Positions 4,881 to 20,699 of a stretch of 64,000 nt of DNA are shown one piece after another. Position numbers and translations under genes: made by a program. The stretch comes from Pseudomonadota bacterium (GTDB taxonomy: Bacteria; Pseudomonadota; Gammaproteobacteria; Burkholderiales; REEB80): assembly GCA_028873515.1 (NCBI GenBank), contig JAGWIG010000003.1, forward strand, positions 1 through 64,000, written 5' to 3'. The notes below the pieces were generated by a model that was not told where the DNA came from, searched no databases, and was given only the letters and a program-made list of their open reading frames with translations. How positions within the stretch are numbered: the first letter of the stretch is position 1; every line of letters starts with the position of its first letter.

Positions 4881-7800
4881 CTACTTTGCACACCCAAACC
4901 TGGACATCTCATGGATTATGCTTACGTCATCGCCGTAGCTATAAACGGACACGGATAAAGATTTACATATTTTGATGTCGCACTCATCAGAAATTATTTT
5001 TAGCTCCTCAATTGGTTTGGTGAACAAACCTTTTAATCCTTTAGCGTCTATTACCCAGTTGTTGTCTATTGGCTCATCTTTCTTAAGTTTGCCATCTTTA
5101 AATACAAGCTCCTTTCGATGCCAGTTTTCTCCGTCAAAGTAATACTCCCGCATGGGGGTTTTTTCCCTAAGGGCGGTATCCGTATAGTAATCCGCGTCCA
5201 TCCATTTCGTTTCATTTTTGATGAATGGAGATGCCCAATTTTCCAGCATGTTTTTGATGGATTGAGAATCGAAACGGGCAAAGGGATGGTTATGCTTGTC
5301 AAAGCAGAGGCTTGAATCCAGTTGTTCTCTAATTATGGCTTCATTGATGAGGCTATGCATGCTGCGATCTTCACCGTGAGAGCTTTTGTTTTTATCAAAA
5401 GATTCATAGCCGGGTTTTTCAAAAATTGCTTTTTCTCCACCTTCCGCATATTTGAAATTGAAGTTCAGAATGTGGATATTTACTTCTGTGATTTCCTTTC
5501 TGCGATGCCGGTTAACACGTCCTGCCGTTTGAACAATCGAGTGCGCACTCGATGGCTCTATAATTGCCCAGTCGAAGTCATGATCTCGACCGATTTCCTC
5601 GACTGGAGTTGCCACAATAACAATACGAGTATTGCCATTCGAGTTTTGGATGCAGTCTTGGATCTCGGAATCGGAAAGCACATCATCCTGCCAGTTGTCT
5701 TTCTTGCGTTTTAAAAGGCGATCCAAACGTGTTTCTATGTAATAACGCTGGATCATGAAGTGCCGCGCATGGTAGCAGCACACAAAGGTATTGGGTTCAT
5801 TAGAGAGTTCCTTCGCTACTTTAATGGCGTGTTTTATGTTCGCAATGCGAACTAAGCCGAAGGACACGTTTTTTTTTGACCAGCAATGCGCGGCGTGAAG
5901 AGTTCCGATACTGGATTTTATCGTGTTGACGATACCTTCGATTCCGTTCCCGACATCAACGATCCTGGCTTTCTTGGTGATGGGTTTTTTCCGAATGCAT
6001 TCTTGGAGTTGATCCAGGTATTGAATGTACTGTTTGCCGAAATCATCAGATGGGTTGTCAGTTTTTATGTTTACCGGATCGACAGAGTCATTGATGATGA
6101 TGCAATCCATCATATTTGCTTTCTTTGATATTGCAGCATGGATGACATGCCCTGAACGGTAACTTTCCCATATATACTTTGCAATGGTTTCTGGAAGAGT
6201 TCCTGAGGACACGATGACGTTCCTGCCAAACATCGCAGATAGTTTTACCAGGCGCAATACCGAGGACAGAGCCTTTGGATCATAGCTGTCTATCTCGTCA
6301 AGGATTAAATCGCTATTCATGAGTCTGGCCAGTGCCAGGGCGTGGTTTCCCTGCTTTGATGGATTACCTGCCGCAATCATGTAATCCACGGTCGAGACGA
6401 GCAGGGGTGGGAGAACTATGTCTTTTGCGTGAGCATAAGGCAAGCTTCTGATCCATTCTGGGATTTCTTCGTGTTCTGAAGAAAAGATGACATCGGCCTC
6501 ATATTCGCCTACGTTGGTGCTATATGGAATATTGTCGTTTATGCTGATATCATCAGTTGCATCATCCCTTTCATATTCATGAAGTTTCCGTGTTTCCGGA
6601 CATCCAATCACTACAGAGATATCGTTTGTATTTATCCCGAGCTCATCAATGTAGGCGTCCCCGGTTTGCAAGGTTAGCGATCTTAATCCAAGCAAGGTTG
6701 TAAGGCGTAGAGGTTTGTCGCCAGCAAGCACGGCTGCAGCCCTTGCATTCATGCGGGTTTTTCCGGCACCAGTTGCGGCAATGTTCATGACCAGGGTGGG
6801 TTTTTCTGGATTAAGGCTATTTGCGGCGCGGTTTTGCCATTCATATATCCCACTTGATATTCTTTTAATGGATTCCCTCCCTGACTCAGCTATGGATCGA
6901 TAAATAGTCCCAATCATGGCCTGCGCGATAGAGGAGGCTTCGTGAGAAACCATGGAAAGATGGCTGGAAAGCTTCTGGTTATAGATTGGCCTTCCTTTGT
7001 TGTCTCTTGTCGTATTGGCAAAAAGGGTATTCTTGTCGGGGTCTTTGCCGTATGGAGTGGATGTGTTGGAAGATATCTTGTGGTCTGCAAGGATCAATGC
7101 GGCTCGTGCAATGATTGACACGCCGGTCCAGTAGTCGATTGATTCATGGGCTTCGCGTTCTTTTAAGCGGTGTATGGTTTTTTTAGTAATTTCGTAAAGT
7201 TCATGATCCGGCCTGTTGGATTTCTGGATTTGATGAGAACCTTCCATCACATGGTTTTCAGCATTCCCGTTGTTGAACAACCTATGGTGGGTAGCCACGC
7301 AAAATGCAATGGCATCTATGACATTACATATGCCATCTGAAATGATTTTTCCCCGCTGTTGTTTGCGGCCTACATTTTTTCCGGTAAGACGGTCAGTTGA
7401 GTTAAGGTAGCCTCCGTTCCAAGCTTCTTCCCATGATTTCCCTTTGATCATTTCCAAGAAGACAATCGTGGAGATTAATTCATGCCGAATTGGATCTGTA
7501 ATGGGTTCTCTGGCATTCTCTGGTTCGATTTTTTTTGCAAAATAGCTTGATGCCTTGCCAATGTCGTGAAGCAGCCCGGATTGTTTTGCCACGAACTGAA
7601 CATCACGCTTCCACTGCGGATAGTCTTCTATTCTATTGACCTTATCACTGGTGACAACGGCAATTTCCCCGTGTTTTCCAAATCTCTCCTTTGCGCCAAC
7701 AACCCATCGCAAACTCATGCGGCGCATCCCTGAATTTTGGTAGCATGCCACGGCTGTTTGACGGGTTGCGCAGCGTTTAAGGGCTTTGTGGATTTCGTTG

Positions 7801-7925
7801 AGTGCATCTTCTGTAATCGGGGTCGTCCATGTGGTTTCGCCAATTCTTATCGCATACCGATCTAGGATGGCCCTTGTTCTTCCTATCGCACGTTTTTCAC
7901 ATAATGAAACAAATGTCACGTGCAC
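4881..7925 (-). CDS. cas3: Type I-F Cas2-Cas3 fusion nuclease-helicase
   Basis: A 1014-residue fusion typical of type I-F. The Cas2 part spans residues 1 to ~95 (VSLCEKRAIGRTRAILD, TPIT, AVACYQN). The HD nuclease begins at LLHDIGKA near 120. The superfamily 2 helicase has GAGKT near 385, DEID near 543, SSGTLPE, and TAGRVNRHRR near 800. It cuts and unwinds target DNA after Cascade binding, and as Cas2 it partners Cas1 in spacer acquisition. The GTG at 7925 is preferred: GGAG lies seven bases upstream and the frame overlaps the end of the regulator gene. An in-frame ATG at 7958 would add 11 atypical residues. In canonical I-F loci this gene sits between cas1 and csy1 on one strand. Here it is on the opposite strand, behind a WYL regulator. 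Confidence 0.95.
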   Translation of the reverse strand: MHVTFVSLCEKRAIGRTRAILDRYAIRIGETTWTTPITEDALNEIHKALKRCATRQTAVACYQNSGMRRMSLRWVVGAKERFGKHGEIAVVTSDKVNRIEDYPQWKRDVQFVAKQSGLLHDIGKASSYFAKKIEPENAREPITDPIRHELISTIVFLEMIKGKSWEEAWNGGYLNSTDRLTGKNVGRKQQRGKIISDGICNVIDAIAFCVATHHRLFNNGNAENHVMEGSHQIQKSNRPDHELYEITKKTIHRLKEREAHESIDYWTGVSIIARAALILADHKISSNTSTPYGKDPDKNTLFANTTRDNKGRPIYNQKLSSHLSMVSHEASSIAQAMIGTIYRSIAESGRESIKRISSGIYEWQNRAANSLNPEKPTLVMNIAATGAGKTRMNARAAAVLAGDKPLRLTTLLGLRSLTLQTGDAYIDELGINTNDISVVIGCPETRKLHEYERDDATDDISINDNIPYSTNVGEYEADVIFSSEHEEIPEWIRSLPYAHAKDIVLPPLLVSTVDYMIAAGNPSKQGNHALALARLMNSDLILDEIDSYDPKALSSVLRLVKLSAMFGRNVIVSSGTLPETIAKYIWESYRSGHVIHAAISKKANMMDCIIINDSVDPVNIKTDNPSDDFGKQYIQYLDQLQECIRKKPITKKARIVDVGNGIEGIVNTIKSSIGTLHAAHCWSKKNVSFGLVRIANIKHAIKVAKELSNEPNTFVCCYHARHFMIQRYYIETRLDRLLKRKKDNWQDDVLSDSEIQDCIQNSNGNTRIVIVATPVEEIGRDHDFDWAIIEPSSAHSIVQTAGRVNRHRRKEITEVNIHILNFNFKYAEGGEKAIFEKPGYESFDKNKSSHGEDRSMHSLINEAIIREQLDSSLCFDKHNHPFARFDSQSIKNMLENWASPFIKNETKWMDADYYTDTALREKTPMREYYFDGENWHRKELVFKDGKLKKDEPIDNNWVIDAKGLKGLFTKPIEELKIISDECDIKICKSLSVSVYSYGDDVSIIHEMSRFGCAK

Positions 7926-8764
7926 TTTTTGTCTCCAATCTTTGTGACAATCGGCCATATTGCTTTTTCCGATGGAGGTATGGATCCATATTTTCTGAGA
8001 TATTCGAATTCCGTTCGACTGTCTGCCATGATATAGCCTTCGTCATCAATGCCCAGTTCATTTGATATCGCCGTATGCTGATCATGTGTCAATGCGGGGT
8101 TGATGTTTATCGCAAGCCTAGATTGCGTTTTGGATAGACGATCCCTCCTGAAATCAGGAGGTAGCGGATCAACGTACTTTTCAAATGCGTTAATTCGATA
8201 CAGCACATAAGTCTTGACGGGGTAGCCAGAAACATCAAGGTCATGGGCTATCAGTCTCCACTGGTCAAACGCGCAATCCAGTCCAATCGGTACAACTGTA
8301 CGCCATCTTGATTCCTCGCCGATATTCATACTGACATAGCGGATACGCATGGCGGATCGATGATTGGGGCGCCCCTTTAACGTTGGCGAGGTAAGGCAGC
8401 TTGTAATCTGGAAAAGTAGCCCCTTTATCGGGCGACCCTTTGTCCAGTGATGGAATACAACTGGGAGTTCGTTCGGGAAAAGTCCGGTATCCTTTGGGTT
8501 GGCGCCATTTACTAATGCTTCGAAAAACTGATCGTCTGTCGCAATGCTACACCAGACCGGGGGGATTTCCTTAAGAAAAATGGTTGTCTTTATTCTTTGC
8601 GTCCGTTCTCCTGATTCATCCACGACCTGATCAAGGACAGCTAAAGCGGTAGGTTTTGAACACTCTGTCGCGGCACAAATGTCTTTGCTGGAAATTTTGC
8701 CTATCCTTGTAAGCCTGTATATCGCAAACTTCCTTGCCATTTCGAATAATAAACCTTTTTTCAT
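7916..8764 (-). CDS. Winged-helix WYL-domain regulator (BrxR/CapW-like) co-transcribed with cas2-3
   Basis: A 282-residue protein. An N-terminal winged helix-turn-helix lies near residues 10-50 (RLTRIGKISSKDICAATECS). A WYL domain lies near 120-205 (IRYVSMN, RTVVPIGLD, QWRLIAHDLD, then YVLYRI). A C-terminal region of ~80 residues fits the WCX-type extension. Proteins of this layout, such as BrxR and CapW, repress phage-defence operons and are thought to be released by a nucleic-acid-like ligand bound by the WYL domain. The gene overlaps the cas2-3 start and diverges from csy1, so it is placed to control both. The ATG at 8764 was chosen over an adjacent GTG at 8767. The domain call is fairly firm; control of CRISPR is inference. 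Confidence 0.82.
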   Translation of the reverse strand: MKKGLLFEMARKFAIYRLTRIGKISSKDICAATECSKPTALAVLDQVVDESGERTQRIKTTIFLKEIPPVWCSIATDDQFFEALVNGANPKDTGLFPNELPVVFHHWTKGRPIKGLLFQITSCLTSPTLKGRPNHRSAMRIRYVSMNIGEESRWRTVVPIGLDCAFDQWRLIAHDLDVSGYPVKTYVLYRINAFEKYVDPLPPDFRRDRLSKTQSRLAININPALTHDQHTAISNELGIDDEGYIMADSRTEFEYLRKYGSIPPSEKAIWPIVTKIGDKKCT

Positions 8765-8786
8765 CACATGATTCCAAATTGATCTT

Positions 8787-8810
8787 ACTTTTATGCATTA
8801 TACAAAAGTG
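8787..8810 (-). promoter_or_regulatory. Palindrome enclosing the -10 box of the WYL-cas2-3 operon
   Basis: ACTTTT (8787-8792) and AAAAGT (8804-8809) form an inverted repeat with an 11-base centre. The centre contains a perfect minus-strand TATAAT (8802 to 8797), 33 bases before the regulator's start. The CACTTT half-site recurs on the plus strand at 8928-8933, just after the csy1 -10 box. This is where an autorepressor would be expected to bind. No convincing -35 box is visible. Operator function is inferred. Confidence 0.5.
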
Positions 8811-8891
8811 CCAAATAAAAGAAAACATTTTATATATATTGTATATTTACTTTAAAAAATAAATTATTTAACTTTTTTTTGGAAATTATTA

Positions 8892-8921
8892 TTGATTTTT
8901 CGAAATTTTGAACTTTATAAT
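8892..8921 (+). promoter_or_regulatory. Predicted sigma-70 promoter of the csy1-csy2-csy3-cas6f-cas1 operon
   Basis: TTGATT (8892-8897) and a perfect TATAAT (8916-8921) are separated by 18 bases, in a very AT-rich intergenic region. The start of csy1 is 34 bases downstream, with GGAGG at 8940-8944. A CACTTT at 8928-8933, shared with the opposing promoter, falls near the expected transcription start and could let one repressor act on both sides. Confidence 0.6.
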
Positions 8922-8954
8922 GAATGACACTTTAAGCGTGGAGGTTGAATAAAA

Positions 8955-10046
8955 ATGGCGCGTAAGGGAAAAGAGAAAATTGGAAAGAAGGAATTGCGAA
9001 AGCAATGGGAATCGTTTTCTGCAGAACGTTATAAATCCGTCATGGAAGGGCTTGTTCACCTGTCTTTCAAGGCAGTGAACAGCAACGCGACACCCGGGGG
9101 AGTCCGCCTCGTTGAAAAAATAGATTTGCCATATATTTCAGCATCATCACTAGGGCCCGATAAGGTAGGCCTAGACTACCCTGTAATGAATACTTCGGAT
9201 AGCAAGGTAGTCACCCAGATCAATGTGGTAACAGACGGAATTGAGGATGAACGTTTCCTTGATGTTCCCCGTGATGAGCGTGAATTCATACTGATAACAA
9301 GGATGGAGATGGGATATCTCGATAATACCAGTCGCCTGGATTGTCATCTAAGGCAAGTGATCTTGCCAGACATGGAAGGTGGGGATATCTGTATTACACC
9401 GGTTCATGTGGCAGGAGTCTCTTCTGTAATCAATGCCATAGAAAGAGCCATGGACAAGGCAGGGGAATTCCATAATGAATACATGCAGCGCATAAAGCAC
9501 GCAACCATGCAATTTGGAGGCGCAAACCCGCAGAATGTGGGATCAAGAATCCGCGACATGCAGTCCCCGATTTATGTGATGCCACCTCGCGAGAATCCGG
9601 TTGCCCAAAAAGTATTGAGAATTCATTTTAACGGTATCCAGATTTTATATAACCGCGGCATTGATGAATTCCTTGGGCTCATGGATGGTTTGCGTGAAAA
9701 GAAAATTGGAATGAAGGAGCGAATTCTGATCAATAAAAATTTGAGGAGGCTCACGCGGGACATTTTGGATAGATCTGCGTCTGCAATGGATCTTTTGGCT
9801 GGAAACAGGGAGTTGTTGCCAGGAGAGGAATTGCTTGACGATGAGTTAATGATGAATGAGTTGCAAGCGGGGCTTCTCATGCCTGAGAAGAGGAGTGCAT
9901 CGTGGAGAGATGTTTTTAGTGAATATGTTATGGATCGTATTCGACATAGAATCAGGAAAATGGATGGGCAGGACGTTGGTTCAGGGATCAGTATTGATGA
10001 AGCCTACAGGATGCGTTCTTTCATTGAAAGCGAGGTATTGGCATGA
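8955..10046 (+). CDS. csy1: Csy1 / Cas8f-like Cascade subunit, shorter than usual
   Basis: First gene of the Cascade operon, 363 residues against roughly 430 in well-known Csy1 proteins. Recognisable Csy1 features are HLSFKAVNSNATPGGV near residue 32, the segment FGGANPQNVGSRIRDMQ near 190 (matching the NPQN motif of the family), and PIYVMPPRENP after it. Cas8f contacts the crRNA 5' handle and the PAM as a heterodimer with Csy2. GGAGG ten bases before the ATG supports the start, and the stop overlaps csy2 by four bases (ATGA). The missing length appears to be mainly in the N-terminal and C-terminal parts, but I could not align it. Position and motifs make the call fairly safe; sequence similarity is weak. 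Confidence 0.78.
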   Translation: MARKGKEKIGKKELRKQWESFSAERYKSVMEGLVHLSFKAVNSNATPGGVRLVEKIDLPYISASSLGPDKVGLDYPVMNTSDSKVVTQINVVTDGIEDERFLDVPRDEREFILITRMEMGYLDNTSRLDCHLRQVILPDMEGGDICITPVHVAGVSSVINAIERAMDKAGEFHNEYMQRIKHATMQFGGANPQNVGSRIRDMQSPIYVMPPRENPVAQKVLRIHFNGIQILYNRGIDEFLGLMDGLREKKIGMKERILINKNLRRLTRDILDRSASAMDLLAGNRELLPGEELLDDELMMNELQAGLLMPEKRSASWRDVFSEYVMDRIRHRIRKMDGQDVGSGISIDEAYRMRSFIESEVLA

Positions 10047-10834
10047 GTTACCTGTTGTTATCCAGAGTTGAGGTTTCAGGCGCCAACGCCCAGTCCGCCT
10101 ACCCTGTCATATCCGGCATTTCTCCCCTTGCTTACCTTGGATTTGCTAGGAAACTTGCTTTGATTTATTCGAATGATATTTGCGATAGGATAGGCGTATC
10201 CATACTGCACCATGATATTGAAATGCATGGAGAAATGGGTTATCGCTTCCAGCCAGCGCAGTATCGCGGTGCAGCCTTAACGACAACAGGAAAGAGAGGA
10301 AAGTCGGACGATTATGTAGGTGGGGGGATGAGCATGTCTCTTCAGCCCACTGCGCGTTGCGATGTTTCTGTATCACTCATTTTATCTGGAATCAACAAAA
10401 AGAGCGAAGCAGAGATCAGGATGGATGTCCTCAGGATGCGCATCGCGGGAGGCCATATTGCCAGCGTTGGAAAGATCAAATGGTTTGAATCTTATGATGA
10501 GGCAGTTCAAAGGGCTGGATCCGGCTACTTTGTCGTAGAGCGTAGCGATATTCTTGGTGGGGCTGAGGACAAGGTGCGGGCAATGCTTTTGGCCTTGGCT
10601 AGCCGCAAGGTGGGGGATGGATGGATTGTTCCTGTTGGTCTGGGATATTTGCCTGTCACTGAATCATCCAAAAAAGAAGGGGTGCGGGGAGATCTTTTGC
10701 ATACCTATGCGGAACCACTGATAGGACTTGTTCAATACAGGTCTGGAAGAAATATCAGGAAATTAAAAGAACCAATCCCAGTATGGAGGTATGGTCTCAA
10801 TAAGGGTGCTTTTGTTGCAACTACGGCATTGTAA
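10043..10834 (+). CDS. csy2: Csy2 / Cas5f Cascade subunit, compact
   Basis: A 263-residue protein; typical Csy2 has about 300-330. The N-terminus LLLSRVEVSGANAQSAYPV and the following SPLAYLGFARKLAL match the Csy2 start (LL.R..V.NAN, then the FxGF-type segment). The C-terminus has TYAEPLIGLVQYRS and PVWRY, which are also family features. Csy2 is a RAMP-fold protein that binds the 8-nt crRNA 5' handle together with Csy1. It is translationally coupled to csy1 by the ATGA overlap and followed by csy3 after 25 bases. Both members of the heterodimer are shortened in this locus. Confidence 0.88.
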   Translation: MSYLLLSRVEVSGANAQSAYPVISGISPLAYLGFARKLALIYSNDICDRIGVSILHHDIEMHGEMGYRFQPAQYRGAALTTTGKRGKSDDYVGGGMSMSLQPTARCDVSVSLILSGINKKSEAEIRMDVLRMRIAGGHIASVGKIKWFESYDEAVQRAGSGYFVVERSDILGGAEDKVRAMLLALASRKVGDGWIVPVGLGYLPVTESSKKEGVRGDLLHTYAEPLIGLVQYRSGRNIRKLKEPIPVWRYGLNKGAFVATTAL

Positions 10835-10859
10835 CTCCATAAATTAAAGGAATATGACC

Positions 10860-11936
10860 ATGAAGCAATTACCGGCAATCGTATCGTTTACAAGAAGCAT
10901 TGTCATTACTGATGGAATCATGTCCAGCATCATGGCCGGTGGTTCCTCCAAGCCTGTTGAGGTAATCAGGCATGGAATACGAGGCACGCAAAACATTGTA
11001 GGAGATGAAGATAAGGTAGGTGGGGAGGCGATTAACGTCCAGGATACGGATACAGCAAAACTGGATGCGAATGCTGTTGGGCTTCGTGTCGAGTTTGAGA
11101 TGCGTATGCTCGCTCTTAAGGATTCACTGAATGCTTGTAATGACAGCGATGCATCTAAGAGCAAGGAATTTCGAGAAGGCATTGTGGATTTTATTGATCG
11201 CGCCAACCAATCCTCTGGGTTGATTGAAGTGGCAAACCGATACGCGCGAAATATTGCGAATGGACGTTGGTTATGGCGCAATCGTACCATGGCAGAGAAG
11301 ATTAATGTGACAGCCAGGATAGGTAAGGATTCAATCGAATTTTCTGCATTGGACATCCCCTTGAACAGCTTTGGCAACTACAGCAATGACGAAAAGACTC
11401 TTGGATCACATATCGCACGAGGAATGCGTGGTAATCCAGTTTCAATAGAAATTATGGCTGACGTGGATTTTGGAATAGAAGGTGCAATTGAGGTGTTCCC
11501 GAGTCAAAATTATCTTTCCGGAAAAAAGGATGACCCTCGCTTAAAGGGTTTTGCGCGGTCCCTATATAAATATGGCGCACCAGAAAAATTCATCCCTACC
11601 GACAATAATCGCGTTGGTTTTGCTGCTATACGGGATCAGAAGATCGGTAACGCACTGCGTACGATTGATACCTGGTACCCAGATACAATAAAGAACAATG
11701 GGTTGCCAATTGCGGTCGAGCCGAATGGTGCCAACATCATGGCTAATAACTTCTTTCGTAAGAACAGTGAATCTGCATTTAAGCTCTACTTGGATCTTGC
11801 AAAGATAGATCCGAACACCGAGCAGGGCATGTTCTGCATCGCAAGCCTGATTCGCGGTGGGGTGTACAGCGGAGGGGATGAAGGGAAAACCGAGTCGAAG
11901 AAAAAGGCTGGAGAAGTCGGCATTAGTGATAATTAA
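10860..11936 (+). CDS. csy3: Csy3 / Cas7f Cascade backbone subunit
   Basis: A 358-residue protein, close to the usual ~340. Family hallmarks are the start LPAIVSFTRSI, then PVEVIRHGIRGT, and especially RYARNIANGRWLWRNR near residue 120. Six Csy3 copies coat the crRNA spacer in the type I-F complex. Of two ATGs, the second (10860) is chosen because AAGGA lies eight bases before it; the first, at 10854, is only two bases from that site. It lies between csy2 and cas6f with short gaps, so one transcript is expected. Confidence 0.93.
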   Translation: MKQLPAIVSFTRSIVITDGIMSSIMAGGSSKPVEVIRHGIRGTQNIVGDEDKVGGEAINVQDTDTAKLDANAVGLRVEFEMRMLALKDSLNACNDSDASKSKEFREGIVDFIDRANQSSGLIEVANRYARNIANGRWLWRNRTMAEKINVTARIGKDSIEFSALDIPLNSFGNYSNDEKTLGSHIARGMRGNPVSIEIMADVDFGIEGAIEVFPSQNYLSGKKDDPRLKGFARSLYKYGAPEKFIPTDNNRVGFAAIRDQKIGNALRTIDTWYPDTIKNNGLPIAVEPNGANIMANNFFRKNSESAFKLYLDLAKIDPNTEQGMFCIASLIRGGVYSGGDEGKTESKKKAGEVGISDN

Positions 11937-11949
11937 ACAGGGGCTTACC

Positions 11950-12507
11950 ATGAAAGCTAAGTGCTATATCGATTTTTCTGCAATCACGATGGAAGGCATC
12001 GTACCGTATGACGTTATCGCAAAGGCCTTTCATGTCTTACATGGCGTATTTGGCGGATCAGTTGGCAAGTATGCCATCGCGTTACCTAAAGCTAGGTCAG
12101 GTTCAACTAAGCGTTCGGTCGGCAACGTCATCCGGATTTTTGCCGGGAATGCTTCTGATCTTTATGCATTGCTGGACAAGGTGCGTGGACATCACTTGAT
12201 GCGGGATTATGTTCAGACAAGCGTTATCAAGGATGTGCCCGCTGACTTTAGGGGGAGTTGGTCTGTTCACCGTCGTGCTCGCATACAAAAGAATGATGGA
12301 ATTAATCGTGATGTGACGATTCTGCGGGCAAAAGAATCCCCCTACCTTGAGATAAGGTCTAGCAAGGGAGGAGTTTTCCCTTTAAGAATCATTGTGGAAA
12401 AGGGCATGCCCCAGGCTACGGAGTTCGAGCCTAATTCCTACGGCTTAGCTGCAATTGGCAATAGGAACGGGGCACAGGCTAACTTTTTTTCCTTACCGGA
12501 TCTTTGA
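11950..12507 (+). CDS. cas6f: Cas6f / Csy4 crRNA-processing endoribonuclease
   Basis: A 185-residue protein, the normal length for Csy4 (~187), when started at ATG 11950 (MKAKCYIDF); the longer open frame from 11857 only overlaps csy3. The putative catalytic His is His31 in VLHGVF, aligned with His29 of Pseudomonas Csy4. The family C-terminal NSYGL motif is present. Cas6f cuts each repeat at the 3' base of its hairpin to give crRNAs with an 8-nt 5' handle, here predicted to be CUUAGAAA. The stop TGA overlaps the cas1 ATG by one base. Confidence 0.93.
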   Translation: MKAKCYIDFSAITMEGIVPYDVIAKAFHVLHGVFGGSVGKYAIALPKARSGSTKRSVGNVIRIFAGNASDLYALLDKVRGHHLMRDYVQTSVIKDVPADFRGSWSVHRRARIQKNDGINRDVTILRAKESPYLEIRSSKGGVFPLRIIVEKGMPQATEFEPNSYGLAAIGNRNGAQANFFSLPDL

Positions 12508-13442
12508 TGGCAATGCAGACTGTATCCCGTAAAAAACCCCTTGCTGTCATGATGTCGGCTAGGGCCAATGTGTTCTATTTACAATACGCCAAGGTCTGTC
12601 AGGACGGAGATCGAGTGGTGTACTGGGTCAATGATGATGGAACTGGCAAAGCGTTCAACATTCCCGACAAGAATACAGCTTTTGTAATGTTAGGGAAGGG
12701 AACTTCAATTACGGATGCGGCAGCCAGAAAACTTGCCGAATCTGGCGTTTTAGTTGGGTTTTGCGGGAATGGTGGGTCGCCGCTTTTTTCGACTGTGAGC
12801 CATGTTTTTCTTGAGCCCCATTCTGAATACAGGCCGACCGAATATATGCAGAGATGGGTAAAGCTTTGGTTTGATGAGTCGGCAAGGTTTGCTGCAGCAA
12901 AAATAATTCTCATTGAGCGAATCGGCATAACCAAGAATTTCTGGGTGTCGCTTCACGGAATAGAAATTCCATTGCAAATGGAAGAACGCTTCAAAAGCAG
13001 GATTGAAACAGCTTCAAATACAACTGAATTATTAACATCAGAGGCTGAATGGGCAAAAGGTGTATATGCGACTCTTGCAAGGAAGTACAAGATCTCGGAT
13101 TTTACTAGGCAAGAAGGAAAGGGGAGTGTTGCGAGTAATTCTGATGCGGTAAACGGCATGATCGATCATGGCAATTATATCGCATATGGATATGCTGCTA
13201 CTGTCCTTACGACACTGGGTATCTCCTATGCGCTCCCACTTTTGCATGGAAAGACTCGTCGGGGAGCTTTGGTCTTTGATGTGGCAGACCTGATTAAGGA
13301 TGCGGTCGTACTTCCTATGGCATTTAAATTCGCAGCGAAAGGAGAGTCGGACCAGGAATTTAGGTATGCATTAATTGATCTTTGCTGGGAGCAGCGTATT
13401 CTTGATTTGCTTTTTGAGACCATCAAAAAATTGGTGCCATAA
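12507..13442 (+). CDS. cas1: Cas1 integrase, type I-F
   Basis: A 311-residue Cas1 of the I-F branch: NVFYLQYAKV, GVLVGFCGNGGSPLF, SEYRPTEYMQRWVKLWF, IDHGNYIAYG, and the C-terminal catalytic region LLHGKTRRGALVFDVADLIK with its conserved His and Asp. It integrates prespacers at the leader end of the array together with the Cas2 part of Cas2-3. ATG 12507 overlaps the cas6f stop; a second ATG at 12513 is possible. It is the last gene before the leader. Canonical I-F loci place cas1 first, before cas2-3, so its position here is rearranged and separated from its partner by about 4.6 kb. Confidence 0.94.
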   Translation: MAMQTVSRKKPLAVMMSARANVFYLQYAKVCQDGDRVVYWVNDDGTGKAFNIPDKNTAFVMLGKGTSITDAAARKLAESGVLVGFCGNGGSPLFSTVSHVFLEPHSEYRPTEYMQRWVKLWFDESARFAAAKIILIERIGITKNFWVSLHGIEIPLQMEERFKSRIETASNTTELLTSEAEWAKGVYATLARKYKISDFTRQEGKGSVASNSDAVNGMIDHGNYIAYGYAATVLTTLGISYALPLLHGKTRRGALVFDVADLIKDAVVLPMAFKFAAKGESDQEFRYALIDLCWEQRILDLLFETIKKLVP

Positions 13443-13551
13443 AATCTTTATAAATACAGTTAGTTGTAGCTCTTTAAAAAATTGAAGGTAAGTGATTGAA
13501 TAAGAGAGGTAGCTGTCTGTTTGAGAAAAGAATTTGGATGTGTCTAGCATA
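13443..13551 (+). promoter_or_regulatory. CRISPR leader
   Basis: A 109-base AT-rich, gene-free segment lies between the cas1 stop and the first repeat. Its position next to cas1, together with duplicated spacers at the opposite end of the array, identifies this as the leader side where new spacers enter and where array transcription should begin. I could not pick out a clear promoter or an IHF site by eye. Confidence 0.7.
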
Positions 13552-16500
13552 GTATGCCGCCACATGCGCGGCTTAGAAACGAAAGAATCATTTACCCATC
13601 CGCGACTGTTTGTATGCCGCCACATGCGCGGCTTAGAAAGGGATAAGGAAACTGCACAGCCTTGGCGTGACGTATGCCGCCACATGCGCGGCTTAGAAAT
13701 GCATGTGTTATTTCTCCAAACGGCCCAGAAAGTATGCCGCCACATGCGCGGCTTAGAAACTAACGTGGAGACGCCATTGACCACATTGACCGTATGCCGC
13801 CACATGCGCGGCTTAGAAATATCTAGGCAAGCTGGAGGCTGACGATGATCCGTATGCCGCCACATGCGCGGCTTAGAAAATAAGGGGGATTCATCCAGCA
13901 ATTTCCCTCCCGTATGCCGCCACATGCGCGGCTTAGAAAGCGTTGCAAAAGCGTGTAATTAGCAGGTAAATGTATGCCGCCACATGCGCGGCTTAGAAAG
14001 TCTTGAAAAGGTCAGGGCGATTACGCTTACGGTATGCCGCCACATGCGCGGCTTAGAAAGTGCTGGATTGTGCGCTCTGCCCCAAACCAATGTATGCCGC
14101 CACATGCGCGGCTTAGAAATCGACACTGCGACCTGACCATCAAAATAAATAGTATGCCGCCACATGCGCGGCTTAGAAAATACGCTCGCAGATCATTGCG
14201 AGACAGATAAAGTATGCCGCCACATGCGCGGCTTAGAAATTTTTACCAAAGGGTATCGATAACCCAATACCGTATGCCGCCACATGCGCGGCTTAGAAAT
14301 CATATGTCATTACTCATTCAAAAAAATCAGGGTATGCCGCCACATGCGCGGCTTAGAAAACATATCGCCGCGACCGGAACCGCGCCATTCAGTATGCCGC
14401 CACATGCGCGGCTTAGAAAGGGATGGAAAGTGGAGGCCAGTTGAACCCGGCGTATGCCGCCACATGCGCGGCTTAGAAATCCAGAAAATTGAAACCGGAG
14501 ATCTTGAAACAGTATGCCGCCACATGCGCGGCTTAGAAAACAAACGGGCGTGATGCCCACACGGATATAGCGTATGCCGCCACATGCGCGGCTTAGAAAT
14601 GTCATGGAAGCGCCGCCGCAGCGCCCCGAGGGTATGCCGCCACATGCGCGGCTTAGAAAATGTACGAGAACGTCAAAAGTTTGTTCAGTCAGTATGCCGC
14701 CACATGCGCGGCTTAGAAATGAAACCCCGGTCCCCTATGCTCCTGAAGACGGTATGCCGCCACATGCGCGGCTTAGAAATCAGTTTTGTGATCATTTTTA
14801 GCTCCTTTCATGTATGCCGCCACATGCGCGGCTTAGAAAGATGGATCTAGGATACATATTGTAAACATTCCGTATGCCGCCACATGCGCGGCTTAGAAAA
14901 ACTGGGAGTTTTGGCGGCGCAATTTCTTTTGGTATGCCGCCACATGCGCGGCTTAGAAAAGCCTGTCGGTTGCCGCGAGCCTGCTGCATCAGTATGCCGC
15001 CACATGCGCGGCTTAGAAAATGAACGGTAGTAAATGTCTAATGTTTTGTTCGTATGCCGCCACATGCGCGGCTTAGAAAATTGAGCATACAACGATGCGC
15101 TCTGTTTTGCTGTATGCCGCCACATGCGCGGCTTAGAAAAAAAAATCAGGCCATGCGCTCATAAAAATAGGTATGCCGCCACATGCGCGGCTTAGAAATC
15201 ACTGAATACGTTTTATCAGACGGTTTTACAGTATGCCGCCACATGCGCGGCTTAGAAAAACTATTATCTTGATAAGTCTGCTTATATTCAGTATGCCGCC
15301 ACATGCGCGGCTTAGAAAGGTTATAGCGATTGGACATACGATTTTAAAAAGTATGCCGCCACATGCGCGGCTTAGAAAAGGCATAAATGAAGAGTAGATA
15401 CGACGCTCTGGTATGCCGCCACATGCGCGGCTTAGAAACAGCGGCACAGAAAAGGAACTGATTATCTTTTGTATGCCGCCACATGCGCGGCTTAGAAAAC
15501 AATCCAAAACCATTTATTGTTTCGTATTATGTATGCCGCCACATGCGCGGCTTAGAAATGCCAAAGATGAAAATACCTACGCATTGAGGGGTATGCCGCC
15601 ACATGCGCGGCTTAGAAAGAAAGCAAGAGTAGCCGCTACATCGGGGCGTTGTATGCCGCCACATGCGCGGCTTAGAAATGCTATTTCGACAAATGAGCCA
15701 CCGGCTCAAAGTATGCCGCCACATGCGCGGCTTAGAAACATTTGTTGACACCTTGGCACGTTTATAAATCGTATGCCGCCACATGCGCGGCTTAGAAATT
15801 GTATGCTCAATGGCAGAGTATTAAAAGTCAGTATGCCGCCACATGCGCGGCTTAGAAAAGCAGGTATTGCCGTTGCATTTGCTGCAATGGGTATGCCGCC
15901 ACATGCGCGGCTTAGAAAGTAATAATTTTTTATGGCCTCAATGGCTTCTTGTATGCCGCCACATGCGCGGCTTAGAAAGCTTCTATCGCGATTTGCCCCG
16001 GCGTCTTGTTGTATGCCGCCACATGCGCGGCTTAGAAATTCGACGCCATTGCCGCAACATGTGCAGATTCGTATGCCGCCACATGCGCGGCTTAGAAAAA
16101 TAAATGATGTGTCATGAAGCTCTGGTATTTGTATGCCGCCACATGCGCGGCTTAGAAAAATCCGGGGCGGTTTTTTTATGCGCTTCACAGGTATGCCGCC
16201 ACATGCGCGGCTTAGAAATTCATGAGATGCTGGATATTTCTCGCATAAGCGTATGCCGCCACATGCGCGGCTTAGAAATGTTCCCCCTCCTAAAAGAGCG
16301 GTGATATAGAGTATGCCGCCACATGCGCGGCTTAGAAAATGCTTAATCAGGAGACACTGGCCCAGGGATTGTATGCCGCCACATGCGCGGCTTAGAAAAT
16401 CATGAGTATGATGCAGACGATGGTGAGAACGTATGCCGCCACATGCGCGGCTTAGAAAAGTTTAAGCAAGACGCCTTGTGCATCGAGAACGTATGCCGCC

Positions 16501-18979
16501 ACATGCGCGGCTTAGAAAAGGCAGTATTATCGACAATGTCACAAAAGCATGTATGCCGCCACATGCGCGGCTTAGAAAAGAAAACTCAAGCTGATACCAA
16601 TATGACAAATGTATGCCGCCACATGCGCGGCTTAGAAAATAGTCTGCATCGTTTCGTTGTATTTTTTCCTGTATGCCGCCACATGCGCGGCTTAGAAATT
16701 GATCTTCGGATTTAAAACCATCCGCCTTATGTATGCCGCCACATGCGCGGCTTAGAAAGCACAAAATCGAAGGATGCGGTCGTCGTATGGGTATGCCGCC
16801 ACATGCGCGGCTTAGAAATGCATGGCTTTCTCCTTATAATATGGTTAACTGTATGCCGCCACATGCGCGGCTTAGAAATATGTGCCTTAAAAGTCAAGCG
16901 GGGACGCGGAGTATGCCGCCACATGCGCGGCTTAGAAAGGAATGCGGGTCAATCGAAGAGGCGATCTGGAGTATGCCGCCACATGCGCGGCTTAGAAAAG
17001 ACTGTTGTAATGCGTCTTTATGGAGGGTTCGTATGCCGCCACATGCGCGGCTTAGAAATTTTATATGTGGTTTGACTACAGTTATATATTGTATGCCGCC
17101 ACATGCGCGGCTTAGAAATTGAGGAAGCACATACGTTTTTACTAAATTGTGTATGCCGCCACATGCGCGGCTTAGAAAATTCGGGGTAAGCAGTTTGGGG
17201 TCGTCGAAGTGTATGCCGCCACATGCGCGGCTTAGAAATCTAATGGAATTAACAAGTTTTTCCGCAAAGAGTATGCCGCCACATGCGCGGCTTAGAAAGA
17301 TTCCTGACATAACGGCGTATGGGTTCAACAGTATGCCGCCACATGCGCGGCTTAGAAAATGCGAGCCAGGTTTTAAGCTGTCCTGTCATGGTATGCCGCC
17401 ACATGCGCGGCTTAGAAAATTTCAGAAGCAGCCCGGCCCATGAACTTCTTGTATGCCGCCACATGCGCGGCTTAGAAAGTGTGGAGTGGCAAATCCCACA
17501 GATTCCTACATGTATGCCGCCACATGCGCGGCTTAGAAAGTACGCATCAACCTGGCTAAACAGGAAACAGTGTATGCCGCCACATGCGCGGCTTAGAAAC
17601 TGTTGTTTAGGTAAAGAAACCGATCCAACTCGTATGCCGCCACATGCGCGGCTTAGAAACGTTGGAAACAGAAAGTCTATTGCCTGAAAGTGTATGCCGC
17701 CACATGCGCGGCTTAGAAATCAAGTTCTGGAAAGATGCCAGCCATCCGAATGTATGCCGCCACATGCGCGGCTTAGAAAGAACGATCCAGTACTATTGCG
17801 AACACGGCCTGGTATGCCGCCACATGCGCGGCTTAGAAAAGATTCATTTATCCAGACATGCATAACCTCACGTATGCCGCCACATGCGCGGCTTAGAAAC
17901 TATCATGCTCCCCCCTCCACAAAGACAGATGGTATGCCGCCACATGCGCGGCTTAGAAATTAAAAATGTGGAATGTTTTAAATGCCTTCTGGTATGCCGC
18001 CACATGCGCGGCTTAGAAAGACAAAAATCCTCATGTGCCTCAATTTCGTATGTATGCCGCCACATGCGCGGCTTAGAAATATAAGGTCTTGAATGTATGC
18101 GGATTTATCAAGTATGCCGCCACATGCGCGGCTTAGAAATTGAAATCATGCGCGTGCAGGGCACACGCCACGTATGCCGCCACATGCGCGGCTTAGAAAG
18201 ACATGCCTTGTTTCACCAAGCGGCCCGGAACGTATGCCGCCACATGCGCGGCTTAGAAAACCCAAACCCACATCGGGAAGCCCATATATTTGTATGCCGC
18301 CACATGCGCGGCTTAGAAAAATACAATCGTCAGGATCGAGAAGTGCAGAACGTATGCCGCCACATGCGCGGCTTAGAAAAGGCAGAGGTTGTAAGACAGT
18401 CGCTTTATGACGTATGCCGCCACATGCGCGGCTTAGAAAAGAAATGAACCATTTTTAAAATTTTATCTTGAGTATGCCGCCACATGCGCGGCTTAGAAAA
18501 GAAATGAACCATTTTTAAAATTTTATCTTGAGTATGCCGCCACATGCGCGGCTTAGAAAGTCTTCGAGCTTGCCACAAACGAGATCCGTACGTATGCCGC
18601 CACATGCGCGGCTTAGAAAGTCGTAATCGAGCTTTTGGGATTTTTTGAGTAGTATGCCGCCACATGCGCGGCTTAGAAAAGATCTGGCACGATCAAAAAT
18701 CAGGTTATCTGGTATGCCGCCACATGCGCGGCTTAGAAAAACAGCATAACCACCAGAAGGGGAAACCATCTGTATGCCGCCACATGCGCGGCTTAGAAAT
18801 ATATCCTTTTTCATGCCAGCCAGTATTTTTTGTATGCCGCCACATGCGCGGCTTAGAAAAGACAGGGCATGAAAGTCCATGCCATCGATTCGTATGCCGC
18901 CACATGCGCGGCTTAGAAAAGACAGGGCATGAAAGTCCATGCCATCGATTCGTATGCCGCCACATGCGCGGCTTAGAAA
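13552..18979 (+). CRISPR. Type I-F CRISPR array: 91 repeats, 90 spacers
   Basis: The 28-bp repeat begins GTATGCCGCC and ends GCTTAGAAA. Positions 13552-13579 hold the first copy and 18952-18979 the last. The period is 60 bases except for one 31-nt spacer (15140-15170) and one 33-nt spacer (17479-17511); all other spacers are 32 nt. I saw no base change in any repeat. GCCGC (repeat positions 5-9) pairs with GCGGC (17-21) around a seven-base loop, and the 3' end matches the I-F handle. Two spacers occur twice in tandem: 18440-18471 = 18500-18531, and 18860-18891 = 18920-18951. Because the period is 20 codons and the unit rarely creates stops, many false open frames cross the array on both strands. 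Confidence 0.99.
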
Positions 18980-19482
18980 ATGGTCAGAAGCGCGGCATGC
19001 GCCGCACCCCCGTATTCGATGGTGCAGTAGAGTTGGACGAAAGCTATTTTGGCGGGGTGCAAAAAAGCAAATGAGGCTGGGGTGTAGCCAGCAAGATGGC
19101 GGTGTTTGGCATTCTGAAGTGGGGCGGAAAGGTCTATACAAAGATCGCTTCCGACACCAGGACAGATACGTTGATGCCGCTAATTACCAGGAAAATTGCG
19201 CCTGACAGTATGGTGTATACGGATTGCTACCGCAGTTATAACGCATTGGACGTGAGCGATTTCTATCCTGTGAGGATCAGTCATTCGGCGTTGTTTGTGA
19301 AAGGCAAGAACCACATCAATGGCATTGAGAATTTCTGGAATCAGGCCAAGCGTGTGTTGAGAAAGTATAACGGAATCCAGAAGGGATCCTTTCCGCTATT
19401 TCTCAAGGAATGTGAATTCAGGTTTAATTACGGGACACCAAAACAACAACTGGAATTATTAAAGGAGCGGGCTGGTATTTAA
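18980..19482 (+). pseudogene. Truncated IS1595-family transposase with a nonsense mutation
   Basis: The frame that leaves the last repeat reads RGMRRTPVFDGAVELDESYFGG, which contains the first catalytic Asp region of IS1595/ISXO2-type DDE transposases. It then meets TGA at 19072-19074 and continues in the same frame as KMAVFGILKWGGKVYTK, YTDCYRSYNALDVSDF, and KNHINGIENFWNQAKR. The N-terminal zinc-ribbon/helix part (about 100 residues in the family) is missing, because homology begins exactly where the array ends. Both the array trailer and the transposon's left end seem to have been lost at one junction. The element is inactive. Confidence 0.85.
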
Positions 19483-19532
19483 CCCTTATCTACTACAGCC
19501 CCTATACTTAACTTAATTGCGATCTGGTTTAT

Positions 19533-20699
19533 TTATCCCAACATTTTTGCCAGGTCTTCTGTTTTGGGGTGGTAGTAACGCTTGAGCATTTTTAGGTCCT
19601 TATGGCCCGTGATGCTAGCTAGTGCCAAGACATTTGGTACCATTTCTGCAAGGCGGCTTGTGGCTTCATGACGAAGATCGTGGAAACGAAGATTTTCTAA
19701 AAATCCATGTTCAATTTCCTGTCCAGTGTTTTTGCAGCCGGATATATAAGCACGTTTGGCTCGCTTTATGGCTCGCACCCATGATTGACGTAATGCTGTT
19801 TGGGTAGTGGCAAACACACGGCCTTTTAATCTTCGGGTATGTTGGTCTTGTAATGATTCAAGAATTGTTATGGCACGACTGGACAAAGGAACGGATCGGT
19901 CTTCGCCATTTTTTGTATCCATCAAATACGCGGTTTGTTTATTTATGTCAATTTGTTCCCACTTTAAACTTAAGATTTCCCCTTGCCTCATGGCTGTTTC
20001 AAGAGCGAAACTAACAATGGGCGCTATGTATTTATTGTTTCTTACTCCAGCATAAATTTTAACATCTGGATTGTCTATCATGGCGGCCCTAAGATATTGT
20101 TCTTCTTTTGGATCAAGTCTCCTGCTACGTTCGTTTTTAACTTTTGGTTTTGAGATATCTGAAATAGGGTTGGTCAGATCCTTCATGCCCCATTCTTTTC
20201 TCGCAATAACATACAGATGGCTTACAATCGCTAAATAGCGTCGTACAGTTGCTGGCGCAGAGCCTTTTTGAATACGCTCATCACGCCATAAAGCGAAATT
20301 AGAGGCTCCCAATTCTATCAGAGGACGATCTGCGAGCTTGCTGTATTCAGTTAGGTCATCGCGTTGTAGTTTGCCAATTTTTGCAGCTTCTTTTTCGGCC
20401 CCCTTTTTATGAATAGTTATCGTGCTTTTGTAACGCTCTAGGGCTTCCGAGAATGTTATGGTTCTTGCATGAATTGGGTCGAACTCTGCAGTTTTCTTTT
20501 TCTGGATGAAATCCTTGCGTTGAAAATTTCCTGTATCAATTGCCTGAATAACCTTTTTTTCCCAGATCTCAACCTTGATACGAGAAGCATCGCTGTGGCA
20601 TAGGTCGTGGGCAATACCGTTTGGCCCAGTACGCTTGATTCGACAGAACCATTGATTACCTCGTTTCTTGACTCGTGATATTACCCGATCTATAGCCAT
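19533..20699 (-). CDS. int: Tyrosine site-specific recombinase (phage/island integrase)
   Basis: A 388-residue integrase with an N-terminal SAM-like core-binding domain and a C-terminal catalytic domain. The catalytic set is visible: Arg in AMRQGEILSLKW, HDLRHEATSRL (His-x-x-Arg), GHKDLKMLKRYYHP (His and the nucleophilic Tyr). It starts about 110 bases from a tRNA-Thr 3' fragment and reads into the island, the usual place for the enzyme that inserted it. It is apparently intact, so excision may still be possible if the left end is present outside the window. Confidence 0.93.
   Translation of the reverse strand: MAIDRVISRVKKRGNQWFCRIKRTGPNGIAHDLCHSDASRIKVEIWEKKVIQAIDTGNFQRKDFIQKKKTAEFDPIHARTITFSEALERYKSTITIHKKGAEKEAAKIGKLQRDDLTEYSKLADRPLIELGASNFALWRDERIQKGSAPATVRRYLAIVSHLYVIARKEWGMKDLTNPISDISKPKVKNERSRRLDPKEEQYLRAAMIDNPDVKIYAGVRNNKYIAPIVSFALETAMRQGEILSLKWEQIDINKQTAYLMDTKNGEDRSVPLSSRAITILESLQDQHTRRLKGRVFATTQTALRQSWVRAIKRAKRAYISGCKNTGQEIEHGFLENLRFHDLRHEATSRLAEMVPNVLALASITGHKDLKMLKRYYHPKTEDLAKMLG

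Follow-up and report, generated by a model that had tools for sequence, protein, structure and literature searches.

The canonical order of a type I-F CRISPR-Cas locus, with cas1 directly upstream of cas2-3 on a single strand, is absent from a locus in a Burkholderiales genome (GenBank assembly GCA_028873515.1, contig JAGWIG010000003.1), of which the first 64,000 nucleotides were analysed (hereafter, the window). Here cas2-3 is divergent on the minus strand, and cas1 is the last gene of a plus-strand operon that is followed by the array. This raises the question of whether the split order is a local accident, a new layout or the mark of a lineage, and whether it allows the nuclease to be controlled apart from Cascade and Cas1. 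The features of the locus are as follows:

4881..7958, minus strand: cas2-3 (Cas3f with an N-terminal Cas2 domain), 1025 aa; TIGR02562, PF21384
7916..8764, minus strand: WYL-domain regulator (HTH-WYL); PF13280, 23.1 bits (cut-off 21.8)
8765..8954, no strand: divergent intergenic region, AT-rich, read from the sequence
8955..10046, plus strand: cas8f variant (divergent short Csy1), 363 aa; PDLC01425 (6.5e-28), hhalign and PDB profile match
10043..10834, plus strand: csy2 / cas5f; PF09614, 57 bits
10854..11936, plus strand: csy3 / cas7f; TIGR02566, 237 bits (cut-off 158)
11950..12507, plus strand: cas6f / csy4, divergent, with the invariant His31; PF09618, 61.6 bits, and alignment
12507..13442, plus strand: cas1 (Cas1f), final gene of the operon; TIGR03637, 363 bits (cut-off 150)
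13443..13551, plus strand: putative leader, 109 nt from cas1 to the first repeat, placed by position
13552..18979, plus strand: CRISPR array, 91 identical 28-nt repeats GTATGCCGCCACATGCGCGGCTTAGAAA and 90 spacers
14420..14451, plus strand: spacer 15, matching phage DNA cytosine methyltransferase genes at a conserved site

Gene content and CRISPR array

An earlier note on this DNA had described a type I-F system in split, divergent units, with a regulator and cas2-3 on the minus strand and csy1, csy2, csy3, cas6f and cas1 on the plus strand. Gene calls and the Cas1f and Cas2-3 profiles bear this out, and profile searches found all the named genes in place on the strands claimed, except that the gene called csy1 is not an ordinary csy1 but a divergent cas8f. 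The locus is confirmed as real, and chance is not an issue. The Cas2-Cas3 fusion of subtype I-F is present, with TIGR02562 at 689 bits (cut-off 566) and PF21384, also over its cut-off, at 78.9 bits across residues 13-89; HD and Walker A motifs are visible in the translation. Cas1f is likewise present (TIGR03637), as are Csy2, Csy3 and Csy4, which exceed the cut-offs of the Pfam models PF09614, PF09615 and PF09618. Csy3 also exceeds the canonical TIGR02566 cut-off, and the NCBIfam equivalog cut-offs for Csy2 and Csy4 were not reached by the window proteins (Cas6f scored 32.7 bits against TIGR02563, slightly below 36.25). The plus-strand operon is tight: the csy2 start overlaps the cas8f end through ATGA, the cas1 start codon overlaps the cas6f stop (TGATG), and the remaining gaps are 19 and 13 nt. 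Rfam gave no match at gathering thresholds. An AbiEi/AbiEii type IV toxin-antitoxin pair (306-2533) adjoins the locus, its AbiEii carrying an extra C-terminal WYL domain.

The array has the 28-nt hairpin repeat and 32-nt spacers of subtype I-F, 88 of the 90 spacers being 32 nt long. The repeat hairpin (-9.1 kcal/mol) is interrupted at the top of its stem, where the closing pair is C/C and the fold takes a one-base bulge, unlike every relative examined. Alongside this odd hairpin, Cas6f has diverged yet kept its invariant His31. Elsewhere in the genome the repeat occurs once, on one other contig. Two spacers near the distal end of the array are duplicated, and in the adjoining 18980-20699 a transposase-like ORF starts right at the last repeat and is followed by a phage-type integrase gene.

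Spacer 15 matches several phages at 31 of 32 positions. A 5'-CC stands beside the protospacer in four of the five flanks read; these flanks belong to homologous phage sites matched by a single spacer and count as one observation. CC is the PAM of Acinetobacter I-Fa, and in Acinetobacter baylyi I-Fa interference with a CC PAM lowered transformation 10^5-fold (PMC7192602). Against plasmids, the sole match of the array was the same methyltransferase site. Exact scans of IMG/VR with four 22-nt spacer cores gave no match, and a search for other spacer targets in five relatives found none.

The first gene of the effector operon

The 363-aa protein encoded before csy2 had no match to the Pfam and NCBIfam Csy1 models, and papers on Acinetobacter baumannii give csy1 as missing in I-Fa (PMC8825777, PMC9458022). 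On these grounds the locus could be assigned to type I-F2, the csy1-less type. However, the PADLOC Cas8f model PDLC01425 matches the window protein at 6.5e-28 and its A. baylyi counterpart at 919 bits, which means that the curators of that model already class the family as Cas8f. When 14 family members were combined in a profile, hhalign matched it to ten canonical Csy1 proteins with 98.4% probability over residues 32-360, and in a PDB profile search the family profile matched a solved Csy1 chain (9irf_J, 5.9e-7). Furthermore, Csy3 lies above the canonical cut-off. Since a Cas8f homologue is present, the absence of Cas8f that defines I-F2 does not hold, and we regard that assignment as very improbable. 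Type I-F3 (Tn7-like, with a Cas8-Cas5 fusion and without cas1 and cas2-3) is ruled out by separate cas8f and csy2 genes and by the presence of cas1 and cas2-3.

Structural comparison relied on the A. baylyi homologue, whose AlphaFold model has a pLDDT of 64; that of the window protein (48) was too poor for use. The C-terminal bundle of Csy1/Cas8f recruits Cas3, and AcrIF3 mimics this bundle. In VIA-align, the top matches of the A. baylyi model were the C-terminal helical bundles of Csy1/Cas8f, with which its own C-terminal bundle aligns, together with AcrF3 (AcrIF3), an entry that is a phage protein bound to Cas3; Z scores were modest, at most 5.5. Foldseek with this model found nothing significant in the PDB, and phmmer with the window Cas8f found no match there.

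In A. baumannii p1DB053, the gene directly before csy2 belongs to the Cas8f-variant family and is annotated as 'hypothetical protein'. The csy1-less reading of I-Fa can be traced to the failure of Pfam and NCBIfam models to detect the divergent Cas8f. From profile and model comparisons, we conclude that csy1 in I-Fa has been overlooked and is not missing, a divergent Cas8f heading the operon. In a diverged Burkholderiales relative (L053, 10907-12421), the Cas8f frame runs for 505 codons from stop to stop; its start codon is uncertain, and the protein could be longer by about 140 residues at its N-terminus.

Lineage of the split layout

A layout search with the Cas8f-variant family recovered 15 loci from named genomes and four from plasmids. 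Every locus with cas1 from this search has the split order except L012, in which cas3 lies past the array and retains the opposite strand. The order of the window recurs in L003-L005, L009-L011, L013-L022, L053, L066 and L067, and the split layout is common to Acinetobacter, Allochromatium, Parachitinimonas, Sphaerotilus and other Burkholderiales. Among 399 Burkholderiales genomes there were six matches, of which five carry the Cas8f variant with the split order and one is canonical.

A phylum-wide survey was made without Cas8f. Gene positions were compared in the 35 genomes with both cas1 and cas3; in 34, cas1 immediately preceded cas3 on the same strand, and no split layout besides the window was found. 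The gene-order table that the earlier note had proposed for I-F cas1 thus shows 34 adjacent, same-strand loci against one split locus. Such isolation, with a transposase fragment and an integrase just beyond the array, might suggest a local rearrangement of the genome or the assembly with no lineage behind it. This is scarcely credible, because at least 19 other loci, spread over several families, have this order and the split loci form one clade in two trees. In the Cas1 tree a 100/100 branch separates 19 split from 26 canonical loci, and in the Cas3 tree a branch with SH-aLRT 100 separates 23 from 26; the split set in both was gathered through its own Cas8f, and other split I-F layouts may exist. 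The proposal that Cas1 and Cas3 trees would unite the split layout in one clade is upheld, and the reading as a local rearrangement is refuted.

The novelty suggested for the layout did not survive comparison with the literature, in which the arrangement is already described, as a minority lineage, under the name I-Fa. In Acinetobacter, I-Fa has cas1 last (PMC7192602), its cluster has been listed as Cas1, Cas6, Csy3, Csy2 and Cas3-Cas2 (PMC8825777), and it was described originally by Touchon et al. (2014), as relayed in PMC7192602. The Acinetobacter systems (A. baylyi ADP1, PMC7192602, PMC3978071; A. baumannii ATCC 19606, PMC8825777) share with the window the terminal cas1, the divergent cas2-3, a Cas8f of the PDLC01425 family, the 28-nt repeat and 32-nt spacers, and the Cas1 and Cas3 of the window fall within their clade (the 100/100 and 100 branches). 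In contrast, the window Cas8f has only about 27% identity to the Acinetobacter proteins, the window repeat has an interrupted stem, and in the window a WYL gene accompanies cas3; the Acinetobacter loci instead carry a small ORF, KilA-C-like or cysteine-rich, ahead of cas8f. With canonical I-F1 of the Pseudomonas/Yersinia type, the window shares the six Cas activities, the Cas2-Cas3 fusion, Cas1f and a Csy3 over the cut-off, but it differs in gene order and strands, in a Cas8f that Csy1 models fail to detect and in its separate branch in both trees.

Also among the nearest known systems are the I-F loci of two further genomes, G048 (L053) and G751 (L067), which are split and have a WYL gene directly before cas2-3, overlapping or adjoining it; however, their proteins have strongly diverged from those of the window (the L053 Cas8f is about 21% identical). 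No published description of these two loci was found in the literature. The locus is thus mostly known in kind, a betaproteobacterial member of the I-Fa-type split lineage with a lineage-specific regulator. As far as the literature consulted shows, three things are new: a member outside the Acinetobacter literature in which a WYL gene and cas2-3 form an operon, the tree test of the clade, and the correction to the view of I-Fa as lacking csy1.

Two Pseudomonas plasmids (L006, 7635-15535; L008, 5769-13519) carry a split system without cas1, in which Cas3 has no Cas2 domain. Between cas3 and cas8f lie 13-16 degenerate repeat units (GTTCnCCACCnnnnnGGTGGTTTTGAAA, with a free loop) with irregular spacers, mostly 13-48 nt, and parts of this region are conserved across the two species. 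The system has the appearance of an effector with no adaptation module and a fixed set of guides. Among 299 genomes of the genus of L008, only L008 matched.

Control of the two arms

The WYL gene stops 43 nt inside cas2-3, an overlap that makes co-transcription and translational coupling of the two genes probable. A WYL homologue stands directly before cas2-3 in L053 (TGATG junction) and at the same place in L067, where its frame is disrupted in the assembled sequence. The gene is thereby joined to cas3 in three of the five Burkholderiales loci, an arrangement apparently unreported; it is absent from the other two and from all Acinetobacter loci (L066, L010 and L014 are among those without it). 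Regulators of the BrxR/CapW type have an HTH-WYL-WCX fold and repress their defence operon; the window protein contains the WYL domain, and its hit to CapW reached only E 1.2. In Synechocystis, WYL proteins repress a type I-D CRISPR locus, and regulators of the BrxR type occur alongside CRISPR systems (PMC9122601). Several Acinetobacter loci have a small ORF on the effector side instead: that of L005 is annotated as KilA-C-like and resembles those of L015 and L016, and a conserved 72-aa cysteine-rich ORF occurs in L009, L011, L013 and L019.

The AT-rich region between the arms likely holds both promoters, as judged from its sequence. A sigma-70-like scan had its best match on the plus strand at 8892-8921 (10 of 12 positions) and performed at chance level overall, with 18 matches found and 15.9 expected. 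In A. baumannii p1DB053 (L004, 5391-8198), the divergent intergenic region contains a 40-repeat array oriented with cas3.

We propose that the plus-strand operon would supply a crRNA-guided complex (the Cas8f variant, Csy2, Csy3 and Cas6f) together with Cas1, and the divergent operon the WYL regulator and the Cas2-3 nuclease. The WYL protein would act on the shared intergenic region and set the supply of nuclease, while effector and Cas1 would be produced together from the opposite promoter. Effector and Cas1 are reportedly opposing regulators of Cas2/3 activity, in published work that reference lists attribute to Rollins et al. We consider this explanation as a whole to be highly likely; within it, the function of the WYL protein, and the expectation that the window locus would behave like its A. 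baylyi relative, are inferred.

The earlier note had suggested that nuclease levels could be set independently of Cascade and Cas1, which published RNA-seq of the homologous A. baylyi ADP1 locus, the kind of test that the note had asked for, favours. After mitomycin C, ACIAD2479-2484 rose 2.8- to 8.5-fold; these genes are two conserved hypotheticals, csy2, csy3, cas6 and cas1 (PMC3978071), and ACIAD2480 is by position the presumed Cas8f variant. The cas3/cas2 gene ACIAD2477 is named in the locus and missing from the induced table, which may mean only a change below 2-fold (PMC3978071). Induction of the Cascade-cas1 arm with cas3/cas2 unlisted favours separate control. Conversely, both arms of the window start in a single region of about 190 bp, comparably short in L003, L010 and L017, so that the two might be regulated as one from a shared bidirectional promoter and the split have no regulatory meaning. 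That is unlikely, in view of the apparently selective induction in A. baylyi and of regulators that differ by lineage and arm (WYL on the cas3 arm, KilA-C-like on the Cascade arm).

A broader form of separate control can be put forward tentatively. Across the split lineage, the intergenic region may serve as a regulatory socket, through which the effector-Cas1 and Cas2-3 arms would be controlled apart by lineage-specific regulators, a WYL protein for the nuclease arm in Burkholderiales and a KilA-C-like one for the effector arm in Acinetobacter, effector and Cas1 being loaded after DNA damage without extra nuclease.

The split layout is therefore one old lineage and not a curiosity, and the statement that I-Fa lacks csy1 in the A. 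baumannii literature is a failure of annotation. With the split and the existing RNA-seq, A. baylyi offers a laboratory strain in which to test directly whether nuclease and effector are controlled separately.
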